Shown: positions 7,268-56,428 of the stretch, piece after piece
Numbering within the stretch: the first letter of the stretch is position 1
Layout: every line of letters begins with the position of its first letter
From: Pseudomonas sp. R5-89-07
GTDB taxonomy: Bacteria > Pseudomonadota > Gammaproteobacteria > Pseudomonadales > Pseudomonadaceae
Reading direction: 5' to 3'
DNA: 64,000 nucleotides
Assembly: GCF_003851685.1 (NCBI RefSeq)
Contig: NZ_CP027727.1
Span: 5,580,001-5,644,000, forward strand
Made by a program: the position numbers and the translations under genes
The notes under the pieces: model-generated
The model's input: only the letters and a program-made list of their open reading frames with translations
What the model was told of the DNA's origin: nothing
Databases searched by the model: none

Positions 7268-8302
7268 TCATATGTCTGCCGGCACCCTCGCCTTCCCCCG
7301 CGCCTCCTCTGCGCTGATCAACCCCTCGCTCACCAGCGCCTTCAAGCTCATATCCAGCGTCTTCATGCCCAACGCCCCGCCGGTCTGGATAGCCGAGACC
7401 ATCTGCGCCACCTTGTCTTCGCGGATCAGGTTGCGAATGGCCGGCGTGCCCAGCATGATTTCGTGGGCCGCTATACGGCCGCCGCCGACCTTCTTCACCA
7501 ACACCTGGGAAACCACCGCCTGCAGGGATTCCGCCAGCATCGACCGCACCATGGCCTTTTCCATGGCAGGGAACACGTCCACCAGCCTGTCTACCGTCTT
7601 TGCCGCCGAGGTGGTGTGCAAGGTGCCAAATACCAGATGCCCGGTCTCAGCGGCCGTCAGCGCTAAGCGGATGGTTTCCAGGTCACGCAGTTCACCCACC
7701 AGGATCACATCCGGGTCTTCGCGTAACGCCGAGCGCAGGGCAGCCGAGAAGCTGTGGGTATCGCGATGCACTTGGCGCTGGTTGATCAAGGCCAGTTTCG
7801 GCCGGTGGATAAATTCGATGGGGTCTTCCAGCGTGAGGATGTGTTGGCGTCGATGCTGATTCAGGTAATCGATCATCGCCGCCAACGTGGTGGACTTGCC
7901 GGAGCCGGTGGGCCCTGTCACCAGCACCAGACCACGCGGCAGCTGCGCGATACGCTGGAACACCTCGCCCAGGCCAAGGCTTTCCAGGCTTTGGATTTCG
8001 TTGGGGATGGTGCGAAATACCGCCCCTACGCCACGCTCCTGCTGGAACACATTGGCGCGAAAGCGAGCCAGGCCGGGCAGCTCGAATGAAAAATCCGTTT
8101 CAAGAGACGTTTCGAAATCCTTTTGTTGGTATTTATTGAGCAAAGGGCTCAATAAATCCGCTACCTGGGACCCGGCCAGTACCGGGCTTTCCAGCGGCCA
8201 GACCTCGCCGTCAATGCGCAGCATCGGTGCCAGGCCGGCCGACAGATGCAGGTCGGAGGCGCCGCGGCGCACGCTGGCGGTCAGTAATTCAGTGATATCC
8301 AT
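7268..8302 (-). CDS. pilT: Type IV pilus retraction ATPase PilT
   Basis: 344-residue hexameric ATPase that powers pilus retraction and twitching motility, located at the inner-membrane base of the pilus. Walker A GPTGSGKST is at about residues 132-140. The Asp box LEDPIEF, the Walker B region VILVGELRDLET, the His box GTLHTTSA and the AIRNLIRE retraction motif are all present. The ATG at 8302 has GGAAAG upstream and gives the family length; upstream in-frame codons are excluded on that basis. It is divergent from yggS. pilU, which follows pilT in P. aeruginosa, is absent here. Confidence 0.97.
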   Translation of the reverse strand: MDITELLTASVRRGASDLHLSAGLAPMLRIDGEVWPLESPVLAGSQVADLLSPLLNKYQQKDFETSLETDFSFELPGLARFRANVFQQERGVGAVFRTIPNEIQSLESLGLGEVFQRIAQLPRGLVLVTGPTGSGKSTTLAAMIDYLNQHRRQHILTLEDPIEFIHRPKLALINQRQVHRDTHSFSAALRSALREDPDVILVGELRDLETIRLALTAAETGHLVFGTLHTTSAAKTVDRLVDVFPAMEKAMVRSMLAESLQAVVSQVLVKKVGGGRIAAHEIMLGTPAIRNLIREDKVAQMVSAIQTGGALGMKTLDMSLKALVSEGLISAEEARGKARVPADI

Positions 8303-8359
8303 AGGGCTTTCCATTTCCAGTAGAATGCCGCGGACTCCATATCCACGGGCGCAACTTGA

Positions 8360-9046
8360 ATGTCGACGATAGCAGACAACATCGGCCTGGTTAGCCAGCG
8401 CATCCGCGCCGCCGCCGACGCCGTGCAGCGTGACGCAAGCGGCATCCACCTGCTGGCCGTGAGCAAGACCAAACCGGCGCAAGCCGTGCGCGAAGCGTTT
8501 GCCGCCGGCTTGCATGACTTTGGCGAAAACTACCTGCAGGAAGCCCTGGGCAAACAGGCCGAATTAACCGACCTGCCCTTGAGTTGGCACTTCATCGGCC
8601 CCATTCAATCGAACAAGACTCGCGCCATCGCCGAGAATTTCGCTTGGGTGCATTCCGTGGACCGCTTGAAAATCGCACAACGCCTGTCCGAACAACGCCC
8701 TGCCGACCTGCCTGCGCTGAATATCTGCATCCAGGTCAACGTCAGTGGCGAAGCCAGCAAGTCCGGCTGTACGCCCGCCGACCTGCCGGCCCTGGCCAAC
8801 GCCATCAGCGCCCTGCCGCGCCTGAAGCTGCGCGGTTTGATGGCGATCCCCGAGCCCACTGAAGACCGCGCGGCGCAGGATGCGGCGTTCGCCACGGTGC
8901 GCGAGCTGCAAGCCAGCCTGAACCTGCCACTGGACACACTTTCCATGGGCATGAGCCACGACCTCGAGTCGGCCATCGCTCAGGGTGCCACCTGGGTGCG
9001 GATCGGTACCGCGCTGTTTGGCGCCCGCGACTACAGCCAGCCGTGA
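8360..9046 (+). CDS. yggS: YggS family pyridoxal-phosphate homeostasis protein
   Basis: 228-residue PLP-binding protein of the PLPBP/YggS family. It has an alanine-racemase-like barrel but no known catalytic activity and acts in vitamin B6 and amino-acid homeostasis. The PLP lysine is in HLLAVSKTKP (K36). FGENYLQE, WHFIGPIQSNK and the C-terminal phosphate-binding SMGMSHDLESAI are present. It begins 57 bp from the divergent pilT start, and proC follows 33 bp downstream, the usual yggS-proC-yggT grouping. A TAGAAT box at 8321-8326 could be its -10 element, but no good -35 is visible. Confidence 0.95.
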   Translation: MSTIADNIGLVSQRIRAAADAVQRDASGIHLLAVSKTKPAQAVREAFAAGLHDFGENYLQEALGKQAELTDLPLSWHFIGPIQSNKTRAIAENFAWVHSVDRLKIAQRLSEQRPADLPALNICIQVNVSGEASKSGCTPADLPALANAISALPRLKLRGLMAIPEPTEDRAAQDAAFATVRELQASLNLPLDTLSMGMSHDLESAIAQGATWVRIGTALFGARDYSQP

Positions 9047-42600: not shown

Positions 42601-43113
42601 TTAAGCTTTCTCCCAGACTTCGAAGTTGTAAGCGGGTTTATCGCCTTCGGCCGGGTTCTCCACATTCGACACCAGCTTCCACTGGCTCGCATCGAACTGC
42701 GGAAACCACGCATCCCCTTCCGGGCTCAACGCCACCCGCGTCAGATACAGACGATCCGCATGCTCCAGCCCCTGCGCATACAACTGCGCGCCGCCGATCA
42801 GCATCAGCTCGTCGACGCCCTGCTCCAGCGCCCACGCCTCGGCGCGTTCGACCGCAGCCTCCAATGACGCAAACACTTGCGCACCTTCAAGCACCAAGTC
42901 GGCCTGACGGCTGACCACGATGTTCAGGCGCCCCGGCAACGGTCGGCCCAGGGAATCCCAGGTCTTGCGCCCCATGATGATCGGCTTGCCAAGGGTGGTG
43001 GCCTTGAAATATTTGAAATCCCCCGGCAAGTGCCAGGGCATGCTGTTGTCGACGCCGATCACACGGTTTTCACCGAGGGCTGCGATCAGGCTTAAAGGGA
43101 GAGTCTTTTTCAT
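42601..43113 (-). CDS. folA: Dihydrofolate reductase
   Basis: 170-residue NADPH-dependent enzyme producing tetrahydrofolate. LIAALGENRVIGVDNSMPWHLPGDFKYFKATT supplies the substrate loop with the active-site Asp, PIIMGRKTWDSLGRPLPGR the cofactor motif, and MLIGGAQLYAQ the second nucleotide segment. Slightly longer than the E. coli enzyme at the C-terminus. It is divergent from the DUF2868 gene. Confidence 0.96.
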   Translation of the reverse strand: MKKTLPLSLIAALGENRVIGVDNSMPWHLPGDFKYFKATTLGKPIIMGRKTWDSLGRPLPGRLNIVVSRQADLVLEGAQVFASLEAAVERAEAWALEQGVDELMLIGGAQLYAQGLEHADRLYLTRVALSPEGDAWFPQFDASQWKLVSNVENPAEGDKPAYNFEVWEKA

Positions 43114-44562: not shown

Positions 44563-45922
44563 ACCCCTCAAGCTCGCCGTGGTCGGCCATACCAATGTGG
44601 GCAAGACCTCATTGCTGCGCACCCTGACCCGCGATGTCGGTTTTGGCGAAGTGTCCCATCGCCCCAGCACCACGCGGCATGTGGAAGGGGCGCGCCTATC
44701 GGTGGACGGCGAAGCCTTGCTGGAGCTGTACGACACCCCCGGCCTGGAAGATGCCATCGCCCTGCTCGATTACCTGGAACGCCTGGACCGCCCCGGCGAA
44801 CGCCTGGATGGCCCGGCACGCCTGACGCGCTTTCTGGAAGGCAGCGAGGCGCGTCAACGCTTCGAACAGGAAGCCAAGGTGCTGCGCCAACTGCTGGCCT
44901 CGGATGCCGGCCTGTACGTGATCGATGCCCGCGAGCCGGTGCTGGCCAAGTACCGCGACGAGCTGCAAGTGCTGGCCAGCTGCGGCAAGCCCTTGCTGCC
45001 GGTGCTCAATTTCGTCAGCAGCAACGACCACCGCGAACCCGACTGGCGCGAGGCCCTGGCTCGCCTTGGCCTGCATGCGCTGGTGCGTTTTGACAGCGTG
45101 GCGCCGCCGGAAGATGGCGAGCGTCGGCTGTATGAAAGCCTGGCCCTGTTGCTGGAAAACGCGCGGCCGCAGCTGGAGCGGCTGATCCTCGATCAGCAAG
45201 CCCAACGCCAGGCCCGCCAGCAGAGCGCTGCGCGTTTGATCGCCGAATTGTTGATCGACTGTGCCGCGTGCCGACGCAGCGTGGTGACCGAGGATGAGCC
45301 ACAGGCCGTCAGCGACTTGCGCAAGGCCGTGCGCCAGCGCGAACAAAAGTGCGTGGAAGCCCTGCTCAAGCTGTTCGGCTTCCGACCCCAGGACGCCGCC
45401 GCCAGCGACTTGCCGCTGCTGGACGGGCGCTGGGGTGACGACCTGTTCAATCCTGAAACCCTCAAGCAACTTGGCGTGCGCGTGGGTGGCGGGATTGCCG
45501 CGGGCGCGGCGGCCGGGGCCGGTGTCGACCTGCTGGTGGGCGGTTTAACCCTGGGCGCTGCCGCGCTGGCCGGCGCGATTGCCGGCGGCGCCCTGCAAAC
45601 CGCGCGCAGCTATGGCAGCCGCCTGATGGGCAAGATCAAGGGCCAGCGCGAACTGACCGTGGACGACAGCGTGCTGCGCCTGCTCGCCCTGCGCCAACGT
45701 CAGTTGCTCAAAGCCTTGAACCTGCGCGGGCACGCGGCGATGCACAGCATCAAGGTCGACACGCCCCAGGATAAAACCTGGCGCGAAGGCAAGCTGCCAG
45801 ACGCGCTGAACAAGGCCCGCGCCTACCCGCAATGGTCGTCCCTCAACCCGCACCCCAAGTTGAGCCAGGCCGAGCGCCAGGAGCAAGTCGAGGCGCTGGC
45901 TCAACGGCTGGACGACGCCTGA
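44555..45922 (+). CDS. DUF3482 GTPase (Era/TrmE-like G domain with hydrophobic C-terminal region)
   Basis: 455-residue P-loop GTPase. G1 is GHTNVGKTS (residues 9-17), the G3 region is LYDTPGLEDA, and the DARE/LNFVSS segments suit the following G motifs. The middle is helical; residues 305-345 form a glycine- and alanine-rich hydrophobic stretch (GIAAGAAAGAGVDLLVGG) that could insert into a membrane. It is translationally coupled to the DUF2868 gene. Its 3' end overlaps the end of the convergent HD oxygenase gene by 22 bp. The process served is unknown. Confidence 0.85.
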   Translation: MTKPLKLAVVGHTNVGKTSLLRTLTRDVGFGEVSHRPSTTRHVEGARLSVDGEALLELYDTPGLEDAIALLDYLERLDRPGERLDGPARLTRFLEGSEARQRFEQEAKVLRQLLASDAGLYVIDAREPVLAKYRDELQVLASCGKPLLPVLNFVSSNDHREPDWREALARLGLHALVRFDSVAPPEDGERRLYESLALLLENARPQLERLILDQQAQRQARQQSAARLIAELLIDCAACRRSVVTEDEPQAVSDLRKAVRQREQKCVEALLKLFGFRPQDAAASDLPLLDGRWGDDLFNPETLKQLGVRVGGGIAAGAAAGAGVDLLVGGLTLGAAALAGAIAGGALQTARSYGSRLMGKIKGQRELTVDDSVLRLLALRQRQLLKALNLRGHAAMHSIKVDTPQDKTWREGKLPDALNKARAYPQWSSLNPHPKLSQAERQEQVEALAQRLDDA

Positions 45923-46473
45923 TCGGCCAGTAGCTGCAGGGCCTTGGCCTTGAGTATTTCAAGGTCGAGCAACGAGACGTGCAGGTCTTTGGCTTGCTCA
46001 TCCCAGTGACGCAGGCGCAGGCTGATGTCACAAAGCGGATGCTGCTCGAAGGCCTGCGCTTCCTGCGCGCTCATCACGCCCCCCTGGTACTCCAACGTAC
46101 GCCGGCTGGCCTCGCTCAACCGGGCGAAATAGTCCGGCTGGGCGAAGGTGAGGTAACGCTTGGCCTGCACGTGGTACTCCACCAACGTCGCCATGCGTTC
46201 GCCAAAGCCCGCACGACGCAGGTAATCGGCGCCCAGCCGCTCGTGACTGACCACGCCATAACCGCCCATGTTCGCTTCGCCCTGGCCACACAGGTGGCCG
46301 ATATCGTGGAAAAACGCCGCCAGCACCACTTCATCGTCAAAGCCTTCGGCCATCGCCTGCTGTGCGGCCTGGGACATGTGCTCGACCTGCGACACCGGCT
46401 CGCCGATGTAATCTGCCGTGCCATGCCGCTCGTACAGGCCGAACACTTCGGCAATCACGCGCTCGCGACTCAT
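45901..46473 (-). CDS. PhnZ-like HD-domain mixed-valent diiron oxygenase (phosphonate degradation)
   Basis: 190-residue HD-domain protein of the phosphonate-degradation-associated family. All iron ligands known for PhnZ are in place: H32, H56-D57, H77, H101 and D158, with the substrate-gating Y22 and E25 in DYIGEP. PhnZ cleaves the C-P bond of (R)-1-hydroxy-2-aminoethylphosphonate with O2 to give glycine and phosphate. Its ATG overlaps the stop of the FAD oxidoreductase gene. No PhnY hydroxylase, which normally makes the hydroxylated substrate, is nearby. Residue correspondence is from memory of the family. Confidence 0.88.
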   Translation of the reverse strand: MSRERVIAEVFGLYERHGTADYIGEPVSQVEHMSQAAQQAMAEGFDDEVVLAAFFHDIGHLCGQGEANMGGYGVVSHERLGADYLRRAGFGERMATLVEYHVQAKRYLTFAQPDYFARLSEASRRTLEYQGGVMSAQEAQAFEQHPLCDISLRLRHWDEQAKDLHVSLLDLEILKAKALQLLADQASSSR

Positions 46474-47606
46474 GACGCCGGCCCCCACAATGCCGTGATG
46501 TTTCGCTCGGCCATCGCCGGCCCCACGCTCATGCCTACACCAGTGTGCATCAGCGCAATGCTCATCCCCGCAGCCACCTGCACAAACGAAAACGGCCCGG
46601 GCCCACGCGAGCCATACACGCCCTGCCAACGCTCCACCACCTGGATCGGGCAGCCCAGGGTCTGCTCGGCCAGGTGTATCAGCCAGTCGTCGACCTGCTC
46701 GGCATTGAATGGCGAAGCATCGCTGCCGTAGTCGTGGGAGTCGCCGATGATCAAGTCGCCGTGGGGCGTGGGGCTGATCAGCAGGTGAATACCGTGGGCA
46801 TGCAGGTGTGGTGCTTCGCGCAGGATCTGCGCCTGTACCGGTGCGGCTTGCGGCAGGTCGGCAAACGCGCCGTAATGCACGCAACTCAGGCCCGTCAGCA
46901 AGGCGTGCTGCAGGTTCAGCGCCCGCGCGGGCCGCGCACGCAGCATTTGCAGGCGGCAGATCTGCGGGTTGAGCGGGGCGATGGATTCGGCCAGCAGGGT
47001 TTGGTAGTCGTGCCCGGAGCAGACGAGGATCTGCTCAGCGCGAAAGCTGCCCGCCGTGCTGTGCAAGCGGCCTGGTTCGACGTCGCGCACCAGGGTGGAA
47101 AAATGAAACTCCACGCCCAGTTCCTGGGCCAGGTAGTTGATCAGCGCCGGGATCGCTTCTCGCGAATACAGTTGCTGGTCGTCCTTGCCATGCAGCGCGG
47201 CACGGTGATGGCGGAACTGGCCGCCGTACAGGTCGTTCAACGCCGCGCCTTGCAGCAGCTCGACGTTGTAGCCGTGCTCACGGGCACGCCCGGCGCAGAA
47301 GGCTTCGAGCAGGTGCTCTTCGGCTTCGGTGCGCGCGAACAGGTAGGAGCCATTGCGCTTGAGCTCAAGGCCGGCGACCTGCGCCCAGTGCGCCCAGATA
47401 TCGCGGCTTTGCCGTGCCAGGTCGAGCATCGGCCCCGGCGGCTGACCGGTGACCAGCGCCTGGCCGAAGTTGCGCACCGAGGCGCCCAGCGGGGTGGCGC
47501 TGCGCTCGAAGACCTTGACCTTCAGTCCGCGCCTGGCGGCGGCGTAGGCGTGGGAGAGGCCGAGGATGCCCGCGCCGATGATCAGCAGATCGGTGTGGTG
47601 TGTCAT
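46470..47606 (-). CDS. FAD-dependent oxidoreductase, aminophosphonate-associated (TIGR03364-like)
   Basis: 378-residue DAO-fold flavoenzyme. The dinucleotide-binding motif LLIIGAGILGLSHAYAAARRG is at its N-terminus, and a FAD-contact motif GVYGSRGPGPF with TGVGMSVGPAMAE at the C-terminus. The family occurs with phosphonate genes and has been proposed to oxidatively deaminate an aminophosphonate. The ATG at 47606 replaces a longer frame whose extra codons run into a REP element. It is coupled to the HD oxygenase gene and follows the transporter. Confidence 0.85.
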   Translation of the reverse strand: MTHHTDLLIIGAGILGLSHAYAAARRGLKVKVFERSATPLGASVRNFGQALVTGQPPGPMLDLARQSRDIWAHWAQVAGLELKRNGSYLFARTEAEEHLLEAFCAGRAREHGYNVELLQGAALNDLYGGQFRHHRAALHGKDDQQLYSREAIPALINYLAQELGVEFHFSTLVRDVEPGRLHSTAGSFRAEQILVCSGHDYQTLLAESIAPLNPQICRLQMLRARPARALNLQHALLTGLSCVHYGAFADLPQAAPVQAQILREAPHLHAHGIHLLISPTPHGDLIIGDSHDYGSDASPFNAEQVDDWLIHLAEQTLGCPIQVVERWQGVYGSRGPGPFSFVQVAAGMSIALMHTGVGMSVGPAMAERNITALWGPAS

Positions 47607-47634
47607 TTGGTGATGTCCTGTTTTCGAGACCGCT

Positions 47635-47704
47635 ATCGGGGGCAAGCCTCCTCCCACATTTGACTGTGTTCGCTATCAAATTGTGGGAGGGGCTTGCCCC
47701 CGAT
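47635..47704. repeat. REP pair, inside-out arrangement
   Basis: ATCGGGGGCAAGCCTCCTCCCAC and, about 28 bp later, GTGGGAGGGGCTTGCCCCCGAT (written in two halves of the same class). Both copies carry small changes. It lies between the binding-protein gene and the FAD oxidoreductase gene, inside the aminophosphonate cluster. Confidence 0.8.
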
Positions 47705-47730
47705 AAGGCCATCAGCCCTAACGGAAAAGC

Positions 47731-48753
47731 CTACTGACCCGCCACCTTCTCCGACTTGCCGTCATAGCGCTTGCGCCATTCAGTCAGGATGCTGTCGCGG
47801 TTCTTCGACGCCCAGGCAAAGTCATTCTTGATCAGCCGCTGCTCATAATCGGCGGGTAACTCGGTCTGCGGCTTGGCAATCCCTGGCTGGGCCAGCACCG
47901 CGAAGTTGTCCTTGTACAGTTCCATCGCCGCCGGGCTGGCGGAAAAGTCTGCGAGTTTTCTGGCGGCATCGGCGTGGCTTGTGCCCTTGATCACCGCCGT
48001 GGCTTCGATGTCCCAGCCCAGGCCTTCCTTCGGCAAGATGATGTCCAGCGGAGCCCCCTGACGCTTCAACTGCACGGCTGGGTATTCAAACGAAATACCA
48101 ATCGGAAACTCCCCGGACGCCGCCAGCTTGCACGGCTTGGAGCCGGAGTGAACGTACTGCCCGATGTTCTGGTGCAGGTCGTCCATGTACCGCCAGCCTT
48201 GTTTCTCGCCGAAGGTTTGCAACCAGGCGCTCACGTCCAGAAAGCCGGTGCCCGAGGACGCCGGGTTGGGCATGACGATCTTGCCTTTGTATTCAGGCTT
48301 GGTCAGGTCCTGCCAACTCACCGGCTTGCTCAGGCCCTGTTTCTCGGCTTCGACGGTGTTGAAGCAAATGGTCGCGGCCCACACGTCCATGCCGACCCAG
48401 GCCGGTGGGTTGGCGGCGTCGCGGTAGTTCTTGCCGATCTTGTCCAGGTCTTTCGGGGCATAGCTGTCGAGCATGCCTTGTTGATCGAGAATCGCCAAGC
48501 TGGAGGCGGCCAGGCCCCACACCACATCGGCCTGCGGGCGGTCTTTTTCGGCCAGCAGCTTGGCGGTGATGATGCCGGTGGAATCGCGCACCCACTTGAT
48601 CTCGACGTCCGGGTTGGCCTGCTCGAAGGCCTTTTTGTAGGTTTTCAATTGCTCGGCTTCAAGGGCCGTGTACACAGTCAGTTCGGTTTTGGCGAACGCA
48701 TTCAGGCTGAATGCAGTGAGTACGGCAGCGACCAGCGCCAGTGGCTTGAACAT
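47731..48753 (-). CDS. 2-aminoethylphosphonate ABC transporter, substrate-binding protein (PhnS2-like)
   Basis: 340-residue periplasmic binding protein of the iron/spermidine/AEP type. A signal peptide (about 1-22, ending NAFA) precedes the mature start KTELTVYTALEAEQ. AASGEFPIGISFEYPAVQLKRQG is typical of the AEP-associated branch. The ATG at 48753 is chosen because it begins the signal peptide. It follows the permease by 20 bp. Substrate is assigned from family and from the adjacent catabolic genes. Confidence 0.85.
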   Translation of the reverse strand: MFKPLALVAAVLTAFSLNAFAKTELTVYTALEAEQLKTYKKAFEQANPDVEIKWVRDSTGIITAKLLAEKDRPQADVVWGLAASSLAILDQQGMLDSYAPKDLDKIGKNYRDAANPPAWVGMDVWAATICFNTVEAEKQGLSKPVSWQDLTKPEYKGKIVMPNPASSGTGFLDVSAWLQTFGEKQGWRYMDDLHQNIGQYVHSGSKPCKLAASGEFPIGISFEYPAVQLKRQGAPLDIILPKEGLGWDIEATAVIKGTSHADAARKLADFSASPAAMELYKDNFAVLAQPGIAKPQTELPADYEQRLIKNDFAWASKNRDSILTEWRKRYDGKSEKVAGQ

Positions 48754-48773
48754 CGAATACCTCCTTTGAAGAG

Positions 48774-50486
48774 TCATTGCCCGGGCGCGGTTTGGCGCCA
48801 GGCTTGGGAGCGGCGCAAGGCGCCACGTGAGGCCCACGCCAGCAACAGCGAGACGCTGCCTGAGGTGAACAGAATCAGAGTCGACATGGCCGCCGCGCCG
48901 CCCACATTGCCGGCGTCATCCATGTTCAACACGGCGACGGCGGCGAGGATGGTGTCGGGGCTGTAGAGGAAGATCGCGGCAGAGACGGTGGTCATAGCCG
49001 ACACGAACAGGTACCGCAGGATGTCCAGCAGCGCGGGCAGGCAGATCGGCACCGTCACTTTCAGGTAATGGCGGTAGAGCGGCGCCTTGAGGGACAGTGC
49101 GGCGGCTTCGAACTCGACGTCCAGCTGGCGCAGCGCGGTGGTGGCGGTCATCTGCGCAGTGGTCAAATAATGCGCAATGGTGCACACCACCAGCAGCGCC
49201 ATGCTGCCGTAGAACACGTGCAGCGGGTTGCCGCCGAGGTTGAAAAAGAACACGTAGCCCAGGCCCAACACCAGGCCAGGCACAGCCATCGGCACAAAGC
49301 TGAGCAGGCGCAGGGCCAGGTTCAGGCCCTGTTGGCCCCTGGTTTTTTCCATCAGGTAGGCGCCGGTGAAAATCAGCACACTGCCAATCAGCGCCGTGCA
49401 CAGCGCCAGGGTCAGGCTGTTGCGGTAGGCCAGCCAGCCGCCGCCGGCGGTGTCTTCGAACTGGTAGTGGTTCAACGACAGCGACAGGTTGTAGGGCCAG
49501 AATTTGACCAGCGAGGAGTACACGGCCATGCCGAACACCAACAGCAGTGCCGCGCAGATCAGCAGCACGACCGCCAGGTAGCAGCCGTCCCTTGAACGCG
49601 ACGGCAGCGGTTGGAACACCTGCGCGCGGCCGCTCATGGCATCACCCTGACGGCGCCGCAACCACGCATCCACGCCAAAGCTGAACAGCGCCGGCAATAG
49701 CAGCACCATGCCGATCAAGGCGCCACGACCGAACTGTTGCTGGCCGACCACCGCTTTGTAGGCCTCCAGCGCCAGCACCTGATAGTCCCCGCCTACCACC
49801 ACGGGCACGCCGAAGTCGGTGATGGTCAGGGTGAACACCAGGCAGAACGCCGCGAACACCGCCTGGCGCGTGGCCGGCCAGGTGATGCTGCGAAACGCCC
49901 GGGCGGGGCTGGCGCCCATGCTGGAGGCGGCGTCGAACAAGCGCGCATCCGCCAGCGACAAGGCAGACAGCAGAATCATCAGGGCATGTGGGAAGGTGTA
50001 AATCACTTCGCCCAGCACAATGCCCCAGAAGCCGTAGATATTGTCCGAGAGCAGACCGCGCAACAGCCCCTGGTTGCCGAACAGATACACCAGCGCGATG
50101 CCCGGCAACATCGAAGGCGCCATCAACGGCAGCAGCGACACGCCGCGCCAGATCACCTTGCCCGGAATCAACGTGCGCTGCAGCGCGTAGGCAAACAGAT
50201 AGGCCAGCGGTACGACGAAGGCCGCGACGCTCAGGGAGACTTTCAGGCTGTTGCCCAGTAACCAGTGGAAGTTGGCACTGCTCAGCAGTTCCCGTGCGGC
50301 CACCAGGCCGCCGCCCTGCCCGGCTTCGCTGCTGAAGCCGCGCCAGAAGATCGCCAGCAGCGGCAGCAGCACCGCCACGACCAACAGGCCCAGCCAGAGT
50401 ACTTTGCCGCCGACCACGAACAGGCGGTCGCCCATTTCAGCGCGGGAGACCGTGCGCGGTAGCGTCAATGCGCTGTCCACGGCCAT
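48774..50486 (-). CDS. 2-aminoethylphosphonate ABC transporter, fused permease (PhnU2-like)
   Basis: 570-residue permease carrying two six-helix halves, each with an ABC EAA-type loop (DAASSMGASPARAFRSITWP and EAAALSLKAPLYRHYLKVTVP). The fused form matches the AEP-type importers, where a single polypeptide makes both membrane halves. The ATG at 50486 lies one base after the ATPase stop; a TTG nine bases upstream is the alternative. Confidence 0.88.
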   Translation of the reverse strand: MAVDSALTLPRTVSRAEMGDRLFVVGGKVLWLGLLVVAVLLPLLAIFWRGFSSEAGQGGGLVAARELLSSANFHWLLGNSLKVSLSVAAFVVPLAYLFAYALQRTLIPGKVIWRGVSLLPLMAPSMLPGIALVYLFGNQGLLRGLLSDNIYGFWGIVLGEVIYTFPHALMILLSALSLADARLFDAASSMGASPARAFRSITWPATRQAVFAAFCLVFTLTITDFGVPVVVGGDYQVLALEAYKAVVGQQQFGRGALIGMVLLLPALFSFGVDAWLRRRQGDAMSGRAQVFQPLPSRSRDGCYLAVVLLICAALLLVFGMAVYSSLVKFWPYNLSLSLNHYQFEDTAGGGWLAYRNSLTLALCTALIGSVLIFTGAYLMEKTRGQQGLNLALRLLSFVPMAVPGLVLGLGYVFFFNLGGNPLHVFYGSMALLVVCTIAHYLTTAQMTATTALRQLDVEFEAAALSLKAPLYRHYLKVTVPICLPALLDILRYLFVSAMTTVSAAIFLYSPDTILAAVAVLNMDDAGNVGGAAAMSTLILFTSGSVSLLLAWASRGALRRSQAWRQTAPGQ

Positions 50487-50487
50487 C

Positions 50488-51552
50488 TCAGGCAAACACC
50501 TGCAAGCTGCGCGGCGGCAAGGCCACCAGAATGTTCTGGGCGCCCAGACGCGGCATGGCTTCCGGTGCCAGCTCGGCCAGCAGCGGGTGGCCCGGCAACT
50601 GCTCCAGCTCGAAACTCATGCGGCAGCGGTTGCCCAGAAAGGTAATCTCGCGGACTTTGGCCGGGAACAGATTTTCTTCATGCACCGGCGGGTTCACGCT
50701 GATCGCTTCCGGGCGGCAGAACAGGCGACCGGAGGCGGCCTGGCCGGCGTCGTCGGCCAGGCGCATATTCATGCCGCCGACCTGGGCATGGCTGGCGCTG
50801 TTGCGACTGAACGGCAGCCAGTTGCCCTGGCCGACGAACTCGGCCACGAACGGCGTGGCCGGGCGGTCGTAAATTTCCTGCGGTGTGGCGTACTGCTCGA
50901 CCTTGCCGTTGTTCATTACCGCGATGCGGTCGGCCATCAACATGGCCTCGTCCTGATTGTGGGTGACCATCAGCGTGGTGATGCCCAGGCGGCGTTGGAG
51001 TTGGCGCAGCTCGGTACACAGGTGCTCGCGAACCCGCGCGTCGAGGGCCGACATGGGTTCATCGAGCAGCAATAACGACGGCGCAGGCGCCAGGGCCCGC
51101 GCCAGGGCGACACGTTGTTGCTGGCCACCGGAGAGTTGGCCGGGGTATTTCTTTTCGCTGCCGAGCAGGCCCACCAGTTCGAGCATTTGCCCGACGCGCG
51201 TGCGCACTTCATCACGACCACAGCCGGTGAGGCCGTAGCCGATGTTCGCTTCAACGGTCAGGTTGGGAAACAGCGCGTAGGACTGAAACAAAATGCCGTA
51301 GTCCCGCGCCTGGGGTGGCAGCGCGGAAACATCGCGCTCGCCCAGGTAAAGCTCGCCGCTATCCTGGCGCTCAAGGCCGGCGATGCAACGCAGCAAGGTG
51401 GTCTTGCCGCAGCCGGACGGGCCCAGCAGGCACACCAGTTCGCCAGCGGAAACGTCCAGGGACACATTGTCCAAGGCGGTAAAGGCGCCGAAGCGTTTCT
51501 GGATACCGCGCACCTTCATCGGCGCGCCGGGCTGGGTCAGGGCTGTGTTCAT
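50488..51552 (-). CDS. 2-aminoethylphosphonate ABC transporter, ATP-binding protein (PhnT2-like)
   Basis: 354-residue ABC ATPase. Walker A GPSGCGKTT is at about residues 45-53, the signature LSGGQQQRVALARA at about 141, and Walker B LLLLDEPMSALD at about 162. A C-terminal TOBE-like regulatory domain (about 240-354) is present. First of the transporter genes; the permease follows after one base. The ATG at 51552 is preferred over a GTG nine bases upstream. Confidence 0.88.
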   Translation of the reverse strand: MNTALTQPGAPMKVRGIQKRFGAFTALDNVSLDVSAGELVCLLGPSGCGKTTLLRCIAGLERQDSGELYLGERDVSALPPQARDYGILFQSYALFPNLTVEANIGYGLTGCGRDEVRTRVGQMLELVGLLGSEKKYPGQLSGGQQQRVALARALAPAPSLLLLDEPMSALDARVREHLCTELRQLQRRLGITTLMVTHNQDEAMLMADRIAVMNNGKVEQYATPQEIYDRPATPFVAEFVGQGNWLPFSRNSASHAQVGGMNMRLADDAGQAASGRLFCRPEAISVNPPVHEENLFPAKVREITFLGNRCRMSFELEQLPGHPLLAELAPEAMPRLGAQNILVALPPRSLQVFA

Positions 51553-51691
51553 GCTAGGCACCTCATCGAACGGATGAAGGCCATGCTAGGGAGGGAATGC
51601 GTCGCGGATGTGGCAGGAAGGCAAAAGGGAGTGATAGGGGTATTGGTGGATTTGGGTAGGGCTCACAGACTGAGGTGCCTGGCCTACTGCT

Positions 51692-51763
51692 ATCGGGGGC
51701 AAGCCCTCTCCCACATTTCGATTTGTGAATGCAGTCGAGTGTGGGAGGGGGCTTGCCCCCGAT
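51692..51763. repeat. REP pair, inside-out arrangement
   Basis: ATCGGGGGCAAG...CTCCCAC followed after about 27 bp by GTGGGAGGGGGCTTGCCCCC. It lies between the LysR gene and the transporter ATPase gene, in the presumed promoter region of the transporter operon. Confidence 0.85.
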
Positions 51764-51788
51764 TGGCCTTCAAGTCAGCCACAAGCCT

Positions 51789-52652
51789 CTAGATGGGCGA
51801 CATTTCCTGCGCCAGCCCCAGAAACGCCGCCGGCAGGCGTGCGGCTTTTCGCTCTTTGAGGCAGTACAGGTACTCCGGAATCTGCGGCGCGTTCTCGAGG
51901 GTCAGCACCCGCAACTGCGGATCATGGGGCACCTCCTGGCGCGCAATGATGCTGATGCCGATATTACGCAGCACCGCCTCGCGGATCGACTCACGACTGC
52001 CAATCTCCAGCAGCGGCCCATAACTGACGCCCGCGCCCTGCAGCATCTCTTCCGTCAGCCGGCGGGTGGTGGAGCCCGCTTCACGCATCAACAGCGTGTG
52101 CCCGGCCAGCGCCGTCAACGGCACATGGTCGAGCTTGGCCAGTGGATGGTTGCGATGCACCGCCAGCACCAGAGGATCAGTGCCCAGCACGCGGCGGACC
52201 AGACGGGTGTCTTCCAGCAATTGCGACGAGGCGGCGACGTCGACGCGGTAGTCGTCCAGCGCTTCGAGCACCTGCTGGGAATTGCCGATTTCCACCGACA
52301 CCTCCACCTGCGGCAGGCGTTCGCGAAAGGCTTTGACCAGATCCAGGATGTAATACGGCGCGGTGGCGGCAATCCGCAAGGCGCCTTGGACCTGCCCGTT
52401 GTTGCGCAGGAAAAACTCGATATCCGCTTCCTGCTGCAGCAGCGTCTTGACCATCGGCAACAGCCGCGCGCCTTCATCGCTGACGGTGAGGCGGCGGCCG
52501 CCACGGTAGAACAGTTCAACGCCGTATTGGCTTTCCAGGTTGCGGATCTGGGTGGTGACCGTAGGCTGGCTCAGGCCGAGTTTCTTCGCCGCCTGGGTAA
52601 TGCTGCCCAGGCGGGCAACCATGAAAAACGCCTTCAGCTCAGCACTCAGCAC
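51789..52652 (-). CDS. LysR family regulator, aminophosphonate-associated
   Basis: 287-residue LysR-type regulator. The N-terminal winged helix-turn-helix (AELKAFFMVARLGSITQAAKKLGLSQPTVTTQIRNLE) is followed by a substrate-binding effector domain. The start is GTG at 52652, supported by GAGAGGG just upstream and an in-frame stop before it. The family is associated with AEP catabolism. It is on the same strand as and upstream of the transporter genes, so it likely regulates them in response to an aminophosphonate. Confidence 0.88.
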   Translation of the reverse strand: MLSAELKAFFMVARLGSITQAAKKLGLSQPTVTTQIRNLESQYGVELFYRGGRRLTVSDEGARLLPMVKTLLQQEADIEFFLRNNGQVQGALRIAATAPYYILDLVKAFRERLPQVEVSVEIGNSQQVLEALDDYRVDVAASSQLLEDTRLVRRVLGTDPLVLAVHRNHPLAKLDHVPLTALAGHTLLMREAGSTTRRLTEEMLQGAGVSYGPLLEIGSRESIREAVLRNIGISIIARQEVPHDPQLRVLTLENAPQIPEYLYCLKERKAARLPAAFLGLAQEMSPI

Positions 52653-52668
52653 ACCACCCTCTCATCGT

Positions 52669-54909
52669 CTATTTGCGCAACAGGCGCAGGCCATTGAACA
52701 CCACCAGCAGGCTGACGCCCATGTCAGCGAACACCGCCATCCACATGGTCGCCATGCCCAGGAAGGTGACAGCCAGGAAGATGGCCTTGATCACCAGCGC
52801 CAGGGCGATGTTCTGCTTGAGGATACTCGACGTTTGCCTGGAGAGCCGAATGAATGCCGGAATCTTGCGCAGGTCATCGTCCATCAGCGCCACGTCGGCG
52901 GTTTCGATGGCGGTGTCGGTGCCTGCCGCGGCCATGGCAAAGCCGATTTCGGCGCGAGCCAGGGCCGGGGCGTCGTTGATGCCGTCGCCGACCATGCCGA
53001 CGCGGCGGCCTTGGCCGTAGAGCGTTTCGATCGCTTGCAGTTTATCGGTGGGCAGCAAGTCACCCTGGGCCTGGTCGATACCGACCTGAGCGGCAATCGC
53101 CTGGGCGGTGTGGGTGTTGTCGCCGGTAAGCATCAGGGTCTTGACGCCCAGGTCATGCAGTTGCTGGATGGCTTCGCGGCTGCTGTCCTTGACGGTGTCA
53201 GCCACCGCGAACAGTGCCAGCGGGCCCGACTTGTCCAGCAGCAACACCACGGACTTGCCCTGCTTTTCCAGGGCGAAGAGTTTTTCTTCCAGCGCAGGCG
53301 AGCACAGCCCCAGGTCTTCCACCAGACGGTGGTTGCCCAGGTGGTAGGTTTCGCCGTTTATGTCACCGCGCACACCACGACCGGCCAACGCCGCGAAGTT
53401 ATCCACAACGTGGGACGGCAGGTTTTTATCCGCCGCCGCGTTGGCGATTGCCAGGGACACCGGGTGGTCGGAGCGGCCCGCCAAGCTCGCCGCCAGGGCC
53501 GGCGCGCTGTCCTGCACGGTGGCGAACAGCGGCAAGTAGTCGGTTTGCACCGGCTTGCCGTGGGTGATGGTGCCGGTCTTGTCCAGGGCGAGGTAGTCCA
53601 GCTTGTAACCGCCCTCCAAGTACACGCCGCCCTTGATCAAAATGCCCTTGCGCGCCGCCGCCGCGAGGCCGCTGACAATGGTCACCGGGGTGGAAATCAC
53701 CAGGGCGCACGGGCAGGCCACCACCAGCAACACCAGGGCGCGGTAGATCCAGTCGAACCAGACCCCTGCCATGAACAACGGCGGTATGAGCGCCACGCCC
53801 AGGGCAAACACAAACACAGCGGGCGTATAGACCTTGGAGAAGCTGTCGACAAAACGCTGGGTCGGTGCCCGGGCGCCCTGGGCCTGCTCCACCGCATGGA
53901 TGATCCGTGCCAGGGTGGAATTGTTGGCCGCAGCCGTCACCTTGTATTCCAGGGAACCGGCCTGATTGATCGTACCGGCGAAGACTTTATCGCCCACGGT
54001 CTTTTCGATCGGCAGGCTTTCACCGGTGATCGGCGCCTGGTCGATGGTGGATTGCCCAGCTGTGACTTCGCCGTCCAGGCCGATGCGCTCGCCGGGTTTT
54101 ACCCGCACGATGGCGCCCAGATCGATACTTTTAACTTCCTGTTCCGACCAGGAACCATCGGCCTGCCGCACCGTGGCCTGCTCCGGGGTCATTTGCATCA
54201 GGCCGCTGATGGCATTGCGCGCCCGGTCCAGGGACTTGGCTTCGATCAGCTCGGCCACAGTAAACAGAAACATCACCATCGCCGCTTCCGGCCATTGGCC
54301 AATCAGCACGGCGCCGGTCACCGCGATGCTCATCAGCGCGTTGATGTTCAGGTTCAGGTTTTTCAGGGCAATCCAGCCCTTTTTGTAGGTGGTGAGGCCG
54401 CCGCTGAGGATCGACACCAGCGCCACCAGGGCGATCACCCAGGTCGGTGCCACGCCGCTGAAATGCAGGACTTCGGCGCCCAACGCACCCACGCCCGACA
54501 CGGCCAGCGGCCACCAATGCTTCTTGGCGGGCGGCGCGGCGGCGGGGGCGCCTTCTTCGATGGGGTCGGCCTGCATGCCGATGGATTTGATCGCCTCGAT
54601 GATCGGCGCCGTGCTCGGCAAGTCATGGGTGACGCCGAGGATGCGGTTGATCAGGTTGAATTCCAGCTGCTGCACCCCGGCGAGCTTGCCCAGCTTGTTC
54701 TGGATCAGCGTCTGTTCGGTGGGGCAATCCATCGCTTCGATGCGAAAGGTGCTCAGGCGCGAACCGGCGGTGGGGGCCTCGCTCAGCTTTACCGTTGCCG
54801 GCGCCGGGGTGCCGGAGCAGCAGGCGCCGCCATGGTCATGCACCGGTTTGAGCTTGTGCTCGCCGTGATCGTGGTCGTGCTTGTGCGGGGTGTGGAGGGA
54901 ATCGCTCAT
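52669..54909 (-). CDS. cadA: Cadmium/zinc-translocating P1B-type ATPase
   Basis: 746-residue heavy-metal efflux ATPase in the inner membrane. A histidine-rich N-terminus (about residues 6-26, repeated His with Asp/Lys) and GGACC precede an HMA-like domain in which the usual CxxC is replaced by C62-PTE. Transmembrane CPC lies in VACPCALVIST. Phosphorylation motif DKTGTITHG, the TGDN loop and GDGINDAP are present. It is divergent from cadR across a MerR-type promoter. Cd/Zn/Pb export is expected. Confidence 0.95.
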   Translation of the reverse strand: MSDSLHTPHKHDHDHGEHKLKPVHDHGGACCSGTPAPATVKLSEAPTAGSRLSTFRIEAMDCPTEQTLIQNKLGKLAGVQQLEFNLINRILGVTHDLPSTAPIIEAIKSIGMQADPIEEGAPAAAPPAKKHWWPLAVSGVGALGAEVLHFSGVAPTWVIALVALVSILSGGLTTYKKGWIALKNLNLNINALMSIAVTGAVLIGQWPEAAMVMFLFTVAELIEAKSLDRARNAISGLMQMTPEQATVRQADGSWSEQEVKSIDLGAIVRVKPGERIGLDGEVTAGQSTIDQAPITGESLPIEKTVGDKVFAGTINQAGSLEYKVTAAANNSTLARIIHAVEQAQGARAPTQRFVDSFSKVYTPAVFVFALGVALIPPLFMAGVWFDWIYRALVLLVVACPCALVISTPVTIVSGLAAAARKGILIKGGVYLEGGYKLDYLALDKTGTITHGKPVQTDYLPLFATVQDSAPALAASLAGRSDHPVSLAIANAAADKNLPSHVVDNFAALAGRGVRGDINGETYHLGNHRLVEDLGLCSPALEEKLFALEKQGKSVVLLLDKSGPLALFAVADTVKDSSREAIQQLHDLGVKTLMLTGDNTHTAQAIAAQVGIDQAQGDLLPTDKLQAIETLYGQGRRVGMVGDGINDAPALARAEIGFAMAAAGTDTAIETADVALMDDDLRKIPAFIRLSRQTSSILKQNIALALVIKAIFLAVTFLGMATMWMAVFADMGVSLLVVFNGLRLLRK

Positions 54910-54940
54910 GGTGTCGCGTCCGAAGAAGTGCCTGTTGCCA

Positions 54941-54971
54941 AGTAAAGACCCTGTAGCCACTATAGGGTCAA
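54941..54971 (-). promoter_or_regulatory. CadR-controlled cadA promoter
   Basis: On the minus strand, -35 TTGACC and -10 TTTACT are separated by 19 bp, the long spacer typical of MerR-family control. The spacer holds an inverted repeat ACCCTATAG-TGG-CTACAGGGT (54947-54969). This matches the CadR operator known in P. putida. Confidence 0.9.
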
Positions 54972-54994
54972 GCACCCATTTGGAGATTGCTGCG

Positions 54995-55435
54995 ATGAAG
55001 ATCGGCGAACTGGCCAAACTGACCGACTGCCCCGTGGAAACCATCCGCTATTACGAGAAGGAAGGCCTGCTGCCACCCCCGGCGCGCACCGATGGCAACT
55101 ATCGGGTGTACACCCAGGTGCACACCGAGCGGCTGATCTTTATCCGCAACTGCCGCAGCCTGGACATGACCCTGGAAGAAATCCGCAGCCTGCTCAGCCT
55201 GCGTGACAGCCCCCAGGACCAATGCGAAAGCGTGAATGCGTTGATCGACGAGCATATCCACCACGTGAAAGCGCGCATCGATGGGCTGCTGGGGTTGCAG
55301 GCGCAATTGCTGGACTTGCGACAGCGCTGTGGCGGTGGGGAGCAGTGCGGGATCTTGCAGCGGCTGGAAGTCAGCGGGAGTGTGCAGGCCAGCGAGGCGC
55401 AGCCCTCACACGTAGGCAGAAGCCACGGGCATTAA
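54995..55435 (+). CDS. cadR: CadR, MerR-family cadmium-responsive regulator
   Basis: 146-residue MerR regulator. The N-terminal helix-turn-helix (MKIGELAKLTDCPVETIRYYE) is followed by the dimerisation helix and a C-terminal metal site. C77, C112 and C118 match the CadR metal cysteines, and the tail SHVGRSHGH supplies histidines. The start at 54995 is chosen by family length; upstream frame sequence overlaps the promoter. It activates cadA by distorting the 19-bp spacer promoter when Cd is bound. Confidence 0.94.
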   Translation: MKIGELAKLTDCPVETIRYYEKEGLLPPPARTDGNYRVYTQVHTERLIFIRNCRSLDMTLEEIRSLLSLRDSPQDQCESVNALIDEHIHHVKARIDGLLGLQAQLLDLRQRCGGGEQCGILQRLEVSGSVQASEAQPSHVGRSHGH

Positions 55436-55436
55436 T

Positions 55437-55523
55437 GTGGGAGGGGGCTTGCCCCCGATTACGGTGTGTCAGTCATGGAAATGCTGGCTGACACACCGCT
55501 ATCGGGGGCAAGCCCCCTCCCAC
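55437..55523. repeat. REP doublet, GTGGGAGGGGGC class, highly self-complementary
   Basis: 87-bp element starting one base after the cadR stop. Outer arms and inner arms (ACGGTGTGTCAG / CTGACACACCG) both pair, so the whole element could form one long hairpin. Located between convergent cadR and thyA. Confidence 0.9.
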
Positions 55524-55543
55524 ATTTGGCTCAGGGCAGTCTG

Positions 55544-56377
55544 TCAGATCGCGACGTCGGCCTTGATGCTTGGGTCTGCGTCGTAGCCCACGATTTCGAA
55601 GTCTTCGAACTTATAGTCGTAGATCGACGCCGGCTTGCGCTTGATCACCAGCTCCGGCAGCTTCTTCGGCGTGCGCGCCAGCTGGGTCTGGATCTGTTCC
55701 ATGTGGTTGCTGTAGGCGTGAGTGTCACCGGTGGTGACGATGATCTCGTGAGGGATCAGGTCGCATTGCTGCGCCAGCATATGGGTGAGCAACGCCAGGG
55801 CGGCGGTGTTGTAGGGCAGGCCGAGGAACACATCGGAGCTGCGGATGTATAACTGCATCGACAGGTGACCATCGTGCACGAAGGCCTGGTACAACAGGTG
55901 GCACGGTGGCAAGGCCTGCTTGCCGTTGCGCGCGTTTTCCTGGGGGCTCTTGGTTTCGTCCGGCAGGTATTCGACGTTCCAGCCGTGGAACAGGATGCGG
56001 CGGCTGTTGGGGTTGGTCTTCAACGTCTCGACCATGTAGTCGATCTGGTTGATCTTGCCGCCGTCCTTGGTCGGCCAGGCGGTCCACTGTTCGCCGTACA
56101 CCGGGCCCAGGTCGCCGTCTTCGGTGGCCCATTCATCCCAGATGCGCACGCCGTTTTCGTTGAGCCACTTGATGTTGGTGTTGCCGCTCAACATCCAGAT
56201 CAGCTCATTGGCGATGCTTTTGAAATGCAGCTTCTTGGTGGTCAGCAGCGGGAAGCCGTCGGCCAGGTTGTGCCGATACTGGCGGGCGAACACGGCCTTG
56301 GTGCCGGTGCCGGTACGATCGCCCTTGGTCAGGCCATTGGTCACGACGTCGTGCAGGAGTTCGAGGTATTGCTTCAT
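55544..56377 (-). CDS. thyA: Thymidylate synthase
   Basis: 277-residue enzyme that methylates dUMP to dTMP with methylene-tetrahydrofolate. The catalytic cysteine is C159 in [39 protein letters not shown] and the C-terminal KADVAI are present. Relative to E. coli ThyA there is an insertion of about 13 residues (around 139-152) just before the catalytic loop. The ATG at 56377 begins the family sequence. It lies 51 bp downstream of lgt. Confidence 0.96.
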
Positions 56378-56398
56378 GTGATTACCCGTATCGTTGAA

Positions 56399-56420
56399 GC
56401 CAAGACCTCCTGGTCTTGGC
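56399..56420 (-). terminator. Hairpin between lgt and thyA
   Basis: Perfect 9-bp stem GCCAAGACC / GGTCTTGGC with a 4-base loop. No T run follows on the minus strand, so it is more likely a processing or attenuation element within the lgt-thyA transcript than a full terminator. Confidence 0.4.
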
Positions 56421-56428
56421 ATTCGAAT

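Follow-up and report, generated by a model that had tools for sequence, protein, structure and literature searches.

A Pseudomonas aminophosphonate cluster in which one importer gene set adjoins a PhnZ-type oxygenase gene and a PbfD/HpnW-family flavoenzyme gene

Results

We analyzed a 64,000-base stretch of the chromosome of Pseudomonas sp. R5-89-07 (positions 5,580,001-5,644,000 of a single 5,997,145-base contig), hereafter the window. At positions 45901-52652 it carries six co-directional genes on the minus strand, encoding a LysR-type regulator, the ATPase, fused permease and binding protein of an ATP-binding cassette (ABC) importer for 2-aminoethylphosphonate (AEP), a flavin adenine dinucleotide (FAD)-dependent enzyme, and an HD-domain oxygenase (Table 1). 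Our subject is how the last two enzymes, referred to below as the flavoenzyme and the HD enzyme, relate to each other and to the importer. All six proteins exceeded curated NCBIfam cut-offs in a profile search, which bears out an earlier note on this DNA that had described such a run with a three-gene AEP-type importer.

The HD gene is taken to start at the ATG at 46473, which replaces the TTG at 46884 of the open reading frame list. The last two bases of this ATG and the base after them form the stop codon of the flavoenzyme gene, and because of this ATGA overlap the two genes are probably translated together. Among the best 80 of more than 521 loci found in named genomes, the closest record was Pseudomonas sp. 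W4I3, whose six proteins are 97-99% identical to those of the window.

Table 1. Genes of the aminophosphonate cluster (window coordinates) and their profile matches
Gene or product	Position	Strand	Profile, score and cut-off
HD-domain oxygenase gene, PhnZ-type (predicted), 190 aa	45901..46473	-	TIGR03276, 226.6 bits (cut-off 214.6)
FAD-dependent amine oxidoreductase gene, PbfD/HpnW family (by profile), 378 aa	46470..47606	-	TIGR03364, 452.3 bits (cut-off 285.1)
Periplasmic binding protein, aminoethylphosphonate ABC importer	47731..48753	-	TIGR03261 phnS2, 538.3 bits (cut-off 392.75)
Fused importer permease	48774..50495	-	TIGR03262 PhnU2, 739.7 bits (cut-off 593.25)
Importer ATPase; alternative ATG start at 51552	50488..51561	-	TIGR03265 PhnT2, 516.9 bits (cut-off 457.7)
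LysR-type regulator, aminoethylphosphonate catabolism	51789..52652	-	TIGR03339 phn_lysR, 423.1 bits (cut-off 341.1)

The best solved relatives of the HD protein were PhnZ (4mlm, 155 bits) and TmpB (6npa, 110 bits), with 47% and 38% identity over the aligned parts, respectively. The alignment contains all six diiron ligands (H...HD...H...H...D), as the earlier note had claimed. The YxxE gate (Y24 and E27 in PhnZ) is kept as DYIGE; it is a substrate-responsive Tyr/Glu pair (PMC8177086; articles are cited here by PubMed Central number, for the parts of each that were available). A GGYGV loop is also common to the window protein and PhnZ, and it was found neither in TmpB nor in the HD proteins encoded at L043 and L045, two phnW-phnX loci. 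A 30-row clade (support 100/99) in a tree of 39 HD proteins unites the window protein with PhnZ, with proteins from Bacteroidota and with two whose partners are PhnY*-like hydroxylases; TmpB and the TmpA-paired proteins fall outside it. The position of PhnZ inside this clade is unsure because the tree program flags it as a long branch. From these sequence features the window protein is predicted to be of the PhnZ type and not of the TmpB type. TmpB itself was rejected as an identity (131.5 bits against a cut-off of 300 for NF049941, no TmpB loop, and no TmpA in the window), and so was a plain HD phosphohydrolase, since the diiron set, the YxxE pair and the loop common with PhnZ favor an oxygenase. 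A search for protein homologues had little bearing on function, the names among the 120 listed of 6243 matches being Pseudomonas.

Across the HD proteins we compared, the ligands were kept in 122 of 122 and the YxxE pair in 120 of 122, with L044 and L132 as the exceptions. Two HD genes appear damaged and may be either broken or assembly errors: that of the one-contig genome G019 (L044, about 8200-8420) is frameshifted near its start, and a match in G190 (C36:442823-443152) has no N-terminal part, covering profile positions 67-175 only.

The FAD amine-oxidase-like enzyme of the earlier description is assigned by its profile score to TIGR03364, the PbfD/HpnW family. Its second family, the ThiO glycine oxidases, gave 79 bits, far below the cut-off of 250.8. 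Although among solved structures it comes closest in sequence to sarcosine and glycine oxidases, we rejected both a ThiO and a sarcosine oxidase identity, as the scores lie far under the cut-offs. Among 23 compared relatives, 36 positions are invariant, including the motifs RNFG, GDSHxY and WxGxY. PbfD1, which is annotated as TIGR03364, and PbfD2 oxidize N-methyl-AEP to phosphonoacetaldehyde, the compound that PhnX then cleaves, and do the same with AEP less efficiently; neither they nor PbfC reacted with sarcosine (PMC10590968). The family description, as quoted in that paper, had guessed 1-hydroxy-2-aminoethylphosphonate (hydroxy-AEP) as the substrate.

If the flavoenzyme resembles PbfD and the HD enzyme resembles PhnZ, their usual partners would be PhnX and the hydroxylase PhnY*, respectively. 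Queried by tblastn with PhnW, PhnX, a PhnY*-like protein, a TmpA and one of the genome's own PhyH proteins, the window gave no match at E 0.001. Elsewhere on the same chromosome, 1.94 Mb from the cluster, PhnX (TIGR01422, 331.9 bits) is encoded beside PhnW (NF010006, 600.8 bits; found as the neighbor of PhnX) at L049:8707-10685, about 3.681-3.683 Mb. In the 20-kb stretch around this pair a LysR gene is oriented away from it, and nothing there matches an ABC importer. The earlier statement that PhnW and PhnX are lacking thus holds for the cluster and the window, but not for the genome.

A PhnY* was not detected in the genome by searches with the PhyH family, which includes the PhnY*-like proteins encoded next to HD genes, and with one such neighbor from another gammaproteobacterium (L235); TauD-family proteins were not surveyed. 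The L235 query gave no genome match at E 0.01, in a search that had no positive control in this genome. The profile search did find two PhyH-family proteins. One is encoded near genes for a serine hydroxymethyltransferase-like protein, an aldo-keto reductase and an asparagine synthetase, and the other near genes for a short-chain dehydrogenase/reductase and a sugar-binding protein. Their similarity to the PhnY*-like proteins of L235 and L233 was marginal (best four E values 0.0002-0.017 within the four-protein set), with best matches of 18-22% identity or a single 31-residue piece. Given these unrelated gene contexts and marginal similarity, we rejected both as PhnY*.

We then considered whether a hydroxylase partner is a regular companion of the HD family. 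In a sample of 350 gammaproteobacterial genomes the family occurs in 8, including the window's own, and these loci provided a positive control: a 2-oxoglutarate hydroxylase lies directly beside the HD gene in 6 of the 7 others (4 TmpA, one of which scores under the TmpA cut-off, and 2 PhyH). The seventh, L238, lies near a contig end; on the side that could be read it has a gene for polyphosphate kinase. By comparison, none of 88 Pseudomonas loci, of which 76 have HD, and none of 44 Bacteroidota loci matched PhnY*-like, TmpA or PhyH queries at E 1e-4. A hydroxylase partner is thus readily spotted where it is present, and none turned up in the Pseudomonas loci. At the genome level, in a genus sample of 199 Pseudomonas genomes, PhyH-family proteins were found in 71 of the 117 genomes with HD and in 52 of the 82 without it, which is no association (p=0.77), and 46 of the 117 HD genomes have no PhyH-family protein at E 1e-5. 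The earlier claim that PhnY is missing is therefore supported, in that the PhyH-family, PhnY*-like and TmpA searches detected no PhnY* in the window, the genome or the 88 Pseudomonas loci.

Within the same genus sample (presence cut-offs: HD, E 1e-30; FAD, 1e-60; PhnX, 1e-50; PhyH, 1e-5), the HD family was present in 117 genomes, in 108 of them above the curated cut-off, the flavoenzyme in 108 and PhnX in 134. Damaged genes were scored as present, namely the frameshifted HD of L044, the partial HD of G190 and split matches in three importer genes of L054. Both enzymes occurred in 96 genomes, the HD enzyme only in 21, the flavoenzyme only in 12 and neither in 70. PhnX is present in every one of the 108 flavoenzyme genomes and in only 26 of the 91 that have no flavoenzyme; the flavoenzyme therefore tracks PhnX (108/108) more strictly than it tracks the HD enzyme (96/108). 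PhnX is missing from four HD genomes, two of which (G063 and G167) hold only distant HDs of 36-38% identity.

Surroundings were read for all 33 single-enzyme genomes. Among the 21 HD-only genomes, 15 have the importer and HD only, 3 have an HD of the same type without an importer in the stretch (L121, L124 and L126), 2 have distant HDs and 1 lies at a contig edge. In the 15 importer-HD loci the HD gene directly follows the importer, the gap between the binding protein and HD matches being 89-359 bases, and in all 15 proteins both the six ligands and the YxxE pair are conserved. In all 12 flavoenzyme-only genomes the flavoenzyme accompanies the importer; 4 of these clusters also contain PhnX, and in 1 further case PhnX lies about 8 kb from the cluster. 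Where PhnX lies within the cluster, it occupies the gap between permease and binding protein (L046, L047, L048, L141, L147, L148 and L149). The importer-HD arrangement without the flavoenzyme recurs in 9 of the 35 Pseudomonas-type loci from named genomes, two of them labeled Pantoea; these two, L181 and L177 (titled Pantoea sp. Ap-967 and Cy-639), carry the Pseudomonas importer-HD cluster, and the record name of L181 looks wrong. As for the three HD genes without an importer alongside, the lone one of L121 (G058) sits near P-type ATPase and thymidylate synthase genes, kinds that also occur near the window cluster, and its stretch has no importer, LysR or flavoenzyme match. A 357-aa frame before the HD gene of L126 was dismissed as a partner enzyme, having no Pfam match and occurring at a single locus.

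We also placed these arrangements on a tree of the importer (permease, binding protein and ATPase) from 80 loci, after removal of two duplicates from 82 rows; among the rows kept, some come from one strain, or from nearly identical ones, present in two collections. It is a quick tree, with 27 of 77 inner branches weak and three long rows, and it does not distinguish gain from loss. On it, the presence of the flavoenzyme changes at least five times, that of the HD enzyme 10 times, and that of PhnX in or near the cluster once (L144 being scored as positive, though its PhnX lies about 8 kb away on the opposite strand). The rows nearest the window include L145, which has the importer and the flavoenzyme and no HD gene. 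Because each enzyme occurs without the other and because their presence changes repeatedly on this tree, the HD enzyme and the flavoenzyme are separable modules.

Beyond Pseudomonas, the best 80 of more than 521 loci in the named-genome scan comprised the 35 Pseudomonas-type loci, 44 from Bacteroidota and 1 from a gammaproteobacterial metagenome-assembled genome. The 44 Bacteroidota HD loci, where each gene family was named on the basis of one or two members and some contigs are short, hold a PhnX-like hydrolase in 33, a flavoenzyme of the same family in 32, DUF5690 in 33, and SusC- and SusD-like proteins in 26 and 27. The PhnX-like protein that was tested scored under its family cut-off (188.2 against 218.9). 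In the class sample of 350 genomes the flavoenzyme was found in one genome besides the window's own, G384, which has a PhnX-like TIGR03351 hydrolase of 208.8 bits, below cut-off. The Bacteroidota and G384 loci agree with a flavoenzyme paired with a putative phosphonatase, to which an HD enzyme is added.

As a separate observation on these loci, the DUF5690 (PF18943) protein, with 8-9 hydrophobic segments in the two proteins examined, recurs with the PhnX-like hydrolase and the TIGR03364 flavoenzyme (Bacteroidota loci L183-L231, and also L232:5447-9007) and is a candidate aminophosphonate permease.

Around the window cluster, translations read by eye point to a dihydrofolate reductase-like gene (42601-43113), a metal-transporting P-type ATPase-like gene (52669-55044), a MerR-type regulator-like gene (54881-55435) and a thymidylate synthase-like gene (55544-56422). 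Three inverted pairs, which we take to be REPIN-like, lie at 47629-47705 (before the flavoenzyme gene), 51692-51763 (before the ATPase gene) and 55434-55526. A promoter scan gave 2 candidate sites where 0.8 were expected and left the lysR-ATPase gap empty, and a terminator scan gave 11 candidates where 6.1 were expected; neither was used in the reading.

Discussion

We consider it likely that the cluster is an aminophosphonate scavenging unit in which one importer serves two enzymes that work in parallel. The importer would bring in N-methyl-AEP, AEP and (R)-1-hydroxy-AEP. A PbfD-type flavoenzyme would convert N-methyl-AEP, and perhaps AEP, to phosphonoacetaldehyde, which PhnX, acting in trans from 1.94 Mb away, would split into acetaldehyde and phosphate. 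The HD enzyme would use O2 at a mixed-valent diiron site to convert (R)-1-hydroxy-AEP to glycine and phosphate, and a further role may be to shield the cell from hydroxy-AEP taken up by the AEP importer. Since the HD enzyme would take imported hydroxy-AEP directly, PhnY* would not be needed. The LysR protein would presumably regulate the unit.

Several points weigh against this reading. No activity is known for the HD enzyme, the flavoenzyme or their close relatives, and uptake of hydroxy-AEP by the window importer is itself inferred. Membership of TIGR03364 does not fix the substrate, because identity between PbfD1 and PbfD2 is only about 30% (PMC10590968). The two enzymes are usually kept together, and a common substrate chain would also fit the overlapping ATGA start and the 96 joint genomes (p=3e-22); the link between flavoenzyme and PhnX within HD genomes, with the two distant HDs excluded, is weak (p=0.026), and these Fisher tests treat genomes as independent, so their p-values are inflated because the genomes are related. 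Finally, G384 has the flavoenzyme without a true PhnX or an HD gene, so the strict rule linking flavoenzyme and PhnX is a Pseudomonas result.

The strongest alternative is that the enzymes act in sequence, the flavoenzyme deaminating or demethylating hydroxy-AEP or N-methyl-hydroxy-AEP and the HD enzyme cleaving the product to glyoxylate or glycine plus phosphate. Its best argument is the ATGA overlap combined with the 96 joint genomes, and it is also consistent with the joint occurrence of both enzymes in Bacteroidota and with the hydroxy-AEP guess in the TIGR03364 description (PMC10590968). A 2024 Achromobacter paper, whose authors describe the roles of HpnW and PhnHD as a conundrum, likewise leaves open that HpnW supplies the substrate of PhnHD (PMC11203657). 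Our counts, however, speak against such supply as a general rule: one gene stands without the other in 33 of the 129 genomes that have either (the two distant HDs and the contig edge being among the 33), the flavoenzyme follows PhnX, and the tested PbfD enzymes yield phosphonoacetaldehyde from N-methyl-AEP and AEP (PMC10590968). We therefore regard a sequential branch as unlikely.

The earlier note had offered this branch, with deamination by the flavoenzyme followed by cleavage by the HD enzyme, as one of two options. The option is not supported, because the genes come and go independently and the flavoenzyme keeps to PhnX in 108 of 108 genomes against 96 of 108 for the HD enzyme. Its other option, direct action on imported hydroxy- or N-methyl-aminophosphonates, is the better of the two.

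It is slightly less probable still that the HD enzyme serves chiefly to detoxify hydroxy-AEP leaking through the AEP importer, and not in nutrition. The HD gene does sit mostly with the importer in the loci we read, and inhibition of Escherichia coli growth by racemic hydroxy-AEP has been cited in suggesting such a role for PbfA (PMC8154272). Against this stand the HD genes of L121, L124 and L126, which have no importer alongside, and the 12 importer-flavoenzyme clusters that do without HD.

We give little credence to the classical PhnY*-PhnZ route with its first step in trans, where another, unlinked 2-oxoglutarate oxygenase of the genome would act as the hydroxylase and make hydroxy-AEP from AEP. 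The two PhyH-family proteins, and the TauD family that was not surveyed, leave room for such an enzyme, but both PhyH genes sit in unrelated clusters and their products barely resemble the PhnY*-like neighbors of HD genes. The 46 HD genomes without PhyH also argue against it, and PhnWX is present for AEP. Equally doubtful is a dedicated route in which the flavoenzyme, acting on N-methylated hydroxy-AEP, would yield the HD substrate, with importer-HD strains using only the non-methylated form; if true, importer, flavoenzyme and HD enzyme would together serve a phosphonate not yet known as a nutrient. Least probable by some way is a flavoenzyme downstream of HD that oxidizes its product glycine (or sarcosine): ThiO is its second-best family and sarcosine and glycine oxidases are its best solved relatives, but the ThiO score falls far short of the cut-off, 12 genomes have the flavoenzyme and no HD, all 108 that have the flavoenzyme also have PhnX, and PbfC, PbfD1 and PbfD2 were unreactive with sarcosine (PMC10590968).

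If the parallel reading is true, importer and HD enzyme would form a very small complete route, in which one importer and one enzyme turn hydroxy-AEP into phosphate and glycine. Pseudomonas strains that naturally carry either the importer and HD, as do P. soli LMG 27941 (L182) and P. taiwanensis DSM 21245 (L176), or the importer and flavoenzyme make the question of HpnW and PhnHD roles directly testable. In addition, a phnZ match in Pseudomonas should not be read as AEP oxidation, as 0 of 88 loci had a PhnY*-like or TmpA match nearby.

The earlier note had seen here an incompletely described pathway. This holds for the combination but not for its halves: both the orphan PhnZ idea (PMC8154272), which is in print because that paper proposes the same role as we infer for the window HD enzyme, and PbfD (PMC10590968) have been described. 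In the literature we covered, which included few subscription papers, we found no survey of the independent presence of HD and flavoenzyme in Pseudomonas.

Comparison with known systems

The LysR and importer genes have known counterparts, LysR-type genes such as that of AepR being found beside AEP operons (PMC9311074) and the AepXVW/AepSTU systems of P. putida BIRD-1 including three-gene AEP ABC importers like that of the window (PMC8316502). The TmpA-TmpB pathway (PDB 6NPA) has in common with the window HD enzyme the HD diiron oxygenase family and its ligands, and differs in the features on which TmpB was rejected above.

PhnZ of the PhnY*-PhnZ pathway of bacterium HF130_AEPn_1 (PDB 4MLM/4N6W) is closer, with the ligands, YxxE pair, GGYGV loop and clade in common. 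Unlike that system, the window HD enzyme has no adjoining or detected PhnY* and sits with an importer and a PbfD-family enzyme. The flavoenzyme is likened to PbfD1 of A. baumannii and PbfD2 of M. fucicola by family, through the TIGR03364 cut-off, and not by direct alignment; PhnX in this genome lies outside the cluster, beside PhnW.

A PhnZ homologue in a hydrolytic AEP setting is likewise seen in phnWX and phnWAY clusters with phnZ (PMC8154272, Table 1), although phnWX is unlinked here and the neighbor is a PbfD-family enzyme. In that survey, phnZ stood beside phnWX in 15 of 1186 cases and phnWAY in 24 of 75, and with the hydroxy-AEP lyase PbfA in 0 of 39. PhnW-PhnX cannot properly process hydroxy-AEP, and PhnZ in hydrolytic AEP clusters was taken as a sign that hydroxy-AEP needs separate processing (PMC8154272). 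Some pseudomonads have also been described with TIGR03276 proteins together with PhnW and PhnX but without PhnY* (PMC11203657).

The nearest arrangement is the Achromobacter cluster hpnW-phnSXUT-lysR-phnHD, which has the same kinds of genes (LysR, importer, HpnW and PhnHD) and no phnW in the cluster as presented (PMC11203657). It differs in holding phnX within the cluster and in the identity of PhnHD to PhnZ, which is 30% there and 47% here. The parts of the window cluster are thus known, their combination is close to that of Achromobacter, and for the HD enzyme our reading is along the lines of a proposal already published.

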